Assembly (NCBI RefSeq): GCF_000505665.1
Contig: NC_023033.1
Coordinates: forward strand, 2,384,313-2,448,312
Source: Thermosynechococcus sp. NK55a
Lineage (GTDB): Bacteria; Cyanobacteriota; Cyanobacteriia; Thermosynechococcales; Thermosynechococcaceae
DNA: 64,000 nucleotides
Direction: 5' to 3'
Positions 14,403 through 64,000 of the stretch are shown one piece after another (position 1 is the first letter of the stretch; each line of letters starts with the position of its first letter). The notes under the pieces are model-generated. The model saw nothing but the letters and a program-made list of their open reading frames with translations. It was not told the origin of the DNA and searched no databases. The position numbers were made by a program, and so were the translations under genes.

Positions 14403-14587
14403 AGAGCGATGGGTAACAACCAAGTAGGGGCAATCAATCCAATCTTTTAGTTTAACGTTTGGCCATAGGAATGTAAACGTTGGCCGCAGACCAATCCGCC
14501 ACAGTGGCACATTCTCTGGAACCTGCCTAAACTGGAGAAGTCTCTAAAGAATGGGCATTAGGCTTTCATACATGAGGGATCGAAAGA

Positions 14588-14910
14588 ATGTCTTTACTCA
14601 AAACATCATCCATTCCCTTGATGGTTTTAAGTGTAGTGTCTCTCGGTGGGGGGCGATCGCCACCCCCTATCCTCCAGAGGTGGTTTCCCGATTCACCAGT
14701 GAATGCACAACCGCTCTGGAACAGCAAGTGCCTCAAATGGCGCAATACGGCAATGCCTACTGCACCTGTGTGATCAATGAACTGCAATCCTCGCTGACCT
14801 TAGCCGAGTTTCAAGCCATTGGTGAAAGTGTGCAGACCAATATCAAGCCGGAAGTGCGCCAGATGCTCACCCAGACCGCCCAAACCTGCCTGCAACGAGT
14901 CAGCCAGTAA
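14588..14910 (+). CDS. Small secreted protein requiring a -1 frameshift in a G6 tract
   Basis: The ATG at 14588 has GAGGGA eight bases upstream and encodes MSLLKTSSIPLMVLSVVSLGGG, the start of a classic signal peptide. At the G6 run (14648-14653) the frame must slip back one base, giving AIATPYPPEVVSRF and an AxA-type cleavage site, then a 107-residue product with four Cys in the mature part (SEC, YCTC, TCL). Without slippage the first frame runs into nonsense; the second frame alone lacks a ribosome site and starts with leader-like residues (14551). Explanations are a base lost in the tract, programmed slippage, or a sequence error. Family unknown. Confidence 0.65.
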
Positions 14911-63681: not shown

Positions 63682-64000
63682 ATGTCAACGCTGCCTGCGT
63701 TTCAGGATGAATTTAATGTCATTGTTGTCGGTGCGGGTCATGCAGGCTGTGAAGCGGCCTTGGCAACGGCGCGGTTGGGCTGTCGTACCCTGTTGCTGAC
63801 CCTCAACCTCGATAAGATTGCTTGGCAGCCCTGTAATCCTGCGGTGGGTGGTCCTGCAAAATCACAACTGGTGCACGAAGTGGATGCCCTAGGGGGCGAA
63901 ATTGGGCGTGTCACCGATCGCACCTATCTGCAAAAGCGGCTCTTGAATGCCTCACGGGGGCCAGCGGTCTGGGCATTGCGGGCGCAAACGGATAAGCGCG
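63682..64000 (+). CDS. mnmG: tRNA uridine-5-carboxymethylaminomethyl modification enzyme MnmG, 5' part
   Basis: The first 106 codons are present, cut by the window end: [39 protein letters not shown], then [39 protein letters not shown]. The dinucleotide-binding GAGHAGCE and NPAVGG motifs are diagnostic of MnmG (GidA). It is the FAD-dependent partner of MnmE, encoded about 58 kb upstream in this window. The rest of the gene is not visible. Confidence 0.95.

Follow-up and report, generated by a model that had tools for sequence, protein, structure and literature searches.

A probable 454 homopolymer undercall splits the gene of a small exported four-cysteine protein in the genome assembly of Thermosynechococcus sp. 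NK55a

The genome of Thermosynechococcus sp. NK55a was assembled with Newbler from 454 GS FLX+ reads at ~26x coverage (PMC3907722), that is, on a platform which is prone to homopolymer errors. In 454 contigs, such errors were found in 2.1–2.8% of genes (PMC3277595). The artificial frameshifts that 454 undercalls create (PMC3277595) resemble those of the NK55a assembly, where one-base deletions lie at or beside homopolymers, approximately 3% of genes are concerned and the frame is broken only in the 454 assembly. In the published case, A/T runs were the more error-prone ones, whereas several of the NK55a runs consist of G/C, which counts against an undercall (PMC3277595). The gene considered here lies in the analysed window, a stretch of 64,000 nucleotides (contig NC_023033.1, positions 2,384,313 to 2,448,312), and its closest counterpart is the orthologous exported four-cysteine protein of Thermosynechococcus encoded between a DUF3134-like gene and metK. 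The locus, start, signal peptide, cleavage site, four cysteines, and stop are all the same; the difference is that the NK55a assembly has one G fewer.

In the deposited sequence, the frame opened by the ATG at 14588 departs from the family sequence after the signal-peptide half, and the frame that remains open is that of a 119-aa ORF, which starts at the ATG at 14551, carries ...GAIATPYPPEVV... and ends at the TAA at 14908–14910 (Table 1). Ten other genomes of the genus, all holding the locus, were used for comparison, and the DNA alignment comprised 11 genomes. In all ten relatives, the signal peptide and the mature part were encoded in one frame with neither a stop nor a shift (for example, MSLLKKSSISLTVLSAVSLGGGAIA-APYPPEVV); thus, the two halves are not the product of a chance ORF overlap. 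The G run of the relatives was G7 in six genomes, G8 in one, and GGTGGGG, GGGGGCG, or AGTACGG in the other three, always in frame, and the one-base shortfall at the run was confined to the NK55a assembly. A profile built from the ten intact proteins matched the NK55a sequence at full strength and without a stop over positions 21–107, and its first 20 positions were unmatched in NK55a; a scan of genome contigs retrieved only one relative, which was already known. The mature part was almost unchanged on the NK55a branch, with no decay, and the signal-peptide part carried three unique residues, K6T and two in the hydrophobic stretch. An earlier note on this DNA had proposed a secreted protein whose signal peptide starts at the ATG at 14588 behind a ribosome-binding site and whose mature part is reached by a −1 frameshift at a G6 run, the join giving SLGGGAIA-TPYPPE. 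The position of the run was confirmed, GAGGGA was found ahead of the ATG, the signal peptide proved to be conserved in the relatives, and the join gives exactly the protein that all ten of them encode, so the two halves do belong together. A biological need for a shift was not supported, since the relatives are single-frame and three of them have an interrupted G run or none. The conserved block upstream of the gene was not called by a simple consensus promoter scan.

Table 1. Features of the split gene (window positions) and other NK55a genes in which a one-base deletion within or beside a homopolymer breaks the frame
Feature	Position	Strand	Basis or remark
Gene of the small exported four-cysteine protein	14588..14910	+	One-base deletion versus all relatives splits the frame
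Signal-peptide half, MSLLKTSSIPLMVLSVVSLGGG	14588..14653	+	Translation; relatives have MSLLKKSSI...AVSLGGGAIA
G6 run, one G short	14648..14653	+	11-genome DNA alignment
Mature half, GAIA-TPYPPEVVSRF...CTC...TCLQRVSQ, −1 frame	14650..14910	+	Translation; family profile match without stop
Fortuitous 5′ part of the 119-aa ORF, MGIRLSYMRDRKNVF..., outside the gene	14551..14649	+	Closed in relatives
Ribosome-binding site GAGGGA of the ATG at 14588	14574..14579	+	Sequence; GAGG conserved in 11/11 genomes
Upstream block GTGGCACATTC.CTGGAACCTGCCTAAACTGGAGAAGTC, probable promoter	14504..14543	+	Strong conservation upstream in the genus
pilT-family gene	genome 2465215		One-base deletion in or next to homopolymer
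Response-regulator gene	genome 2482875		One-base deletion in or next to homopolymer
lipA (one of two)	genome 2486610		One-base deletion in or next to homopolymer
Unnamed 203-aa gene	genome 2509374		One-base deletion in or next to homopolymer
mnmG	window 63712–64000 and beyond, genome 2448024–2449870		Lost A in a run just past the window end

The protein carries four invariant cysteines (C, CxC, C), and the layout with a YPP motif behind the signal peptide and C...CxC...C after it was found in the relatives, in paralogues, and in homologues of other genera; in the NK55a assembly, it appears only once the frames are joined. The conserved signal peptide speaks for the predicted export, and the paralogues and the family members of other genera likewise begin with one. 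Two paralogues of NK55a, at genome positions 1464021–1464251 and 527111–527392, are also small secreted proteins that share with the split gene the signal peptide, the YPP/YPQ motif after the cleavage site, and the four cysteines in the C...CxC...C order, although their frames are intact and their sequences distant from it. Pfam and NCBIfam searches found no family for the protein, and the group represents a small exported four-cysteine family without a named model in either collection. Membership in DUF4168 (PF13767) was considered and rejected at E = 0.091 and 14.2 bits, against a gathering cut-off of 25.8. For the protein of a relative, an AlphaFold model (mean pLDDT 69.6) shows four helices packed, with moderate confidence, into a small bundle, and a fold search with this model gave no significant match.

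Frame breaks were then counted in a census of three genomes, each being searched for breaks in genes that the other two have intact. It covered the ~2.24–2.52 Mb part of the NK55a genome, ~280 kb of 2.52 Mb, and about half of the DNA taken for it was not common to all three genomes. An earlier census that included short and antisense ORFs had shown no clear excess of frameshifts. After that result had been seen, the filter was tightened to ORFs of 90 aa or more without overlaps. Under this filter, 6 of 201 NK55a genes proved to be broken by the loss of one base within or adjacent to a homopolymer, versus 0 of 203 and 0 of 199 in the two relatives (Fisher p = 0.0013); all three genomes also had frame breaks of other kinds, which do not enter these numbers. 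The share in NK55a is close to that published for 454 contigs. The exported-protein gene is the sixth of these genes, and the other five are given in Table 1. Among them, mnmG is apparently a sole copy, with a single full match in each genome of the genus; it is single-frame in all ten relatives and split only in NK55a. Two mismatch-repair genes are broken in the same manner, mutS1 by a T6 to T5 deletion and mutS2 by a C8 to C7 deletion (genome 1626953 and 1939487), and mutL is intact. With mutS1 and mutS2 included, eight of the eight frame-breaking events were deletions (p = 0.008). Two of the lost bases were a single G after A6 and one of the GG after A5; thus, slippage during replication inside a run does not account for these two events. 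Across 231,244 aligned columns, NK55a had 12 unique homopolymer-associated one-base deletions versus 4889 unique substitutions, and the two relatives together had 7 versus 19016 (p = 6e-5); for the other one-base indels, NK55a showed no such increase per substitution (p = 0.67). This all-column count repeats the excess seen in the census independently of the ORF filter. The substitution branch of NK55a was the shortest of the three genomes compared. Two events of another kind than those at homopolymers were also unique to NK55a, a tandem duplication of 7 bp (TAGTTAG) and the in-frame loss of 3 bp in ligA (genome 2305321, + strand, outside the window; 2272023).

Slippage of the ribosome (−1) or of the RNA polymerase on the G run, by which a short and a full product would be made, seems very improbable at this locus. 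In the signal-peptide frame, the paired codons GGG GGG would let the A-site tRNA re-pair after a −1 shift, and the mature frame is conserved; however, the shift is needed in no relative, a second overlapping frame is conserved in none of the ten, and there is no conserved slippery site, since three relatives lack the intact G run. The region downstream of the run (14654–14740) showed no unusual structure (z = −0.33), and no frameshift element of Rfam was detected at threshold, the weak match listed falling 3′ of the stop codon. It is hardly credible that the 119-aa frame from the ATG at 14551 is a real gene with a non-secreted product. This frame is indeed open in the deposited sequence, but its upstream 33 codons are neither open nor conserved in the relatives, where the mature frame reaches the signal-peptide start and stops shortly upstream of it, and for this reason the 14551 start is regarded as fortuitous. 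It is the signal peptide that is conserved, and it also starts the paralogues and the homologues in other genera. Homologues that start at the 14551 ATG and run in one frame without a signal peptide, which the earlier note had named as the finding that would speak against its reading, were not seen in the relatives.

We consider it unlikely that the deletion is real and recent, in which case the gene would have become a pseudogene only lately, or the sequenced culture would carry a null allele of it, and the cause might be a loss of mismatch repair through the mutS1 and mutS2 frameshifts. Homopolymer indels rise when mismatch repair is lost. Both mutS genes are split in the assembly and their loss would itself explain the homopolymer deletions. 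A recent real mismatch-repair defect would give a similar deletion excess, which counts against an undercall; the three unique residues of the signal peptide could also reflect relaxed constraint. Nevertheless, real slippage should yield insertions as well as deletions, and two of the deletions did not arise by slippage within a run. In a mutator of long standing, substitutions should have accumulated on a long branch, yet that of NK55a is the shortest; mutL is undamaged, and real deletions would demand the simultaneous loss of mnmG, a lipA, and other genes, including several housekeeping ones. The further possibility, that NK55a is really devoid of mismatch repair through the breaks of mutS1 and mutS2 at homopolymers and gathers deletions that turn off genes like that of the exported protein, is quite doubtful; if it were true, NK55a would be a mutator, of natural or laboratory origin, among the thermophilic cyanobacteria.

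Among the alternatives raised in the earlier note, a sequence error is thus the best supported, a real broken gene comes second, and slippage last. As far as the comparison of genomes allows us to judge, the split gene is probably a 454 homopolymer sequencing error rather than a real deletion or a regulated frameshift. Two marks of 454 artefacts are present, namely, the platform at moderate coverage and the genome-wide excess of homopolymer deletions over the relatives; the closing of gaps with Sanger reads by the authors of the assembly (PMC3907722) counts against an undercall. If the base was lost in sequencing, the gene would be intact in the cell and would encode a 107-residue secreted protein, the deposited sequence would be one G short of a G7 run, and its G6 would be an undercall that persisted into the consensus. 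The signal peptide would direct the export of the protein and be removed behind AIA or AIAA, and the mature form would be a small helical domain, probably with two disulphides, in the periplasm or outside the cell.

Explained as a sequencing error, the locus no longer offers the false lead of a switchable secreted protein. NK55a has been named as lacking mutS1 (PMC5101192), which agrees with the split of this gene described above, and an error of this type is the probable source of the published absence. Many one-base deletions at homopolymers are likely to be present in the NK55a reference, and gene absences drawn from this assembly, including that of mutS1, need rechecking.
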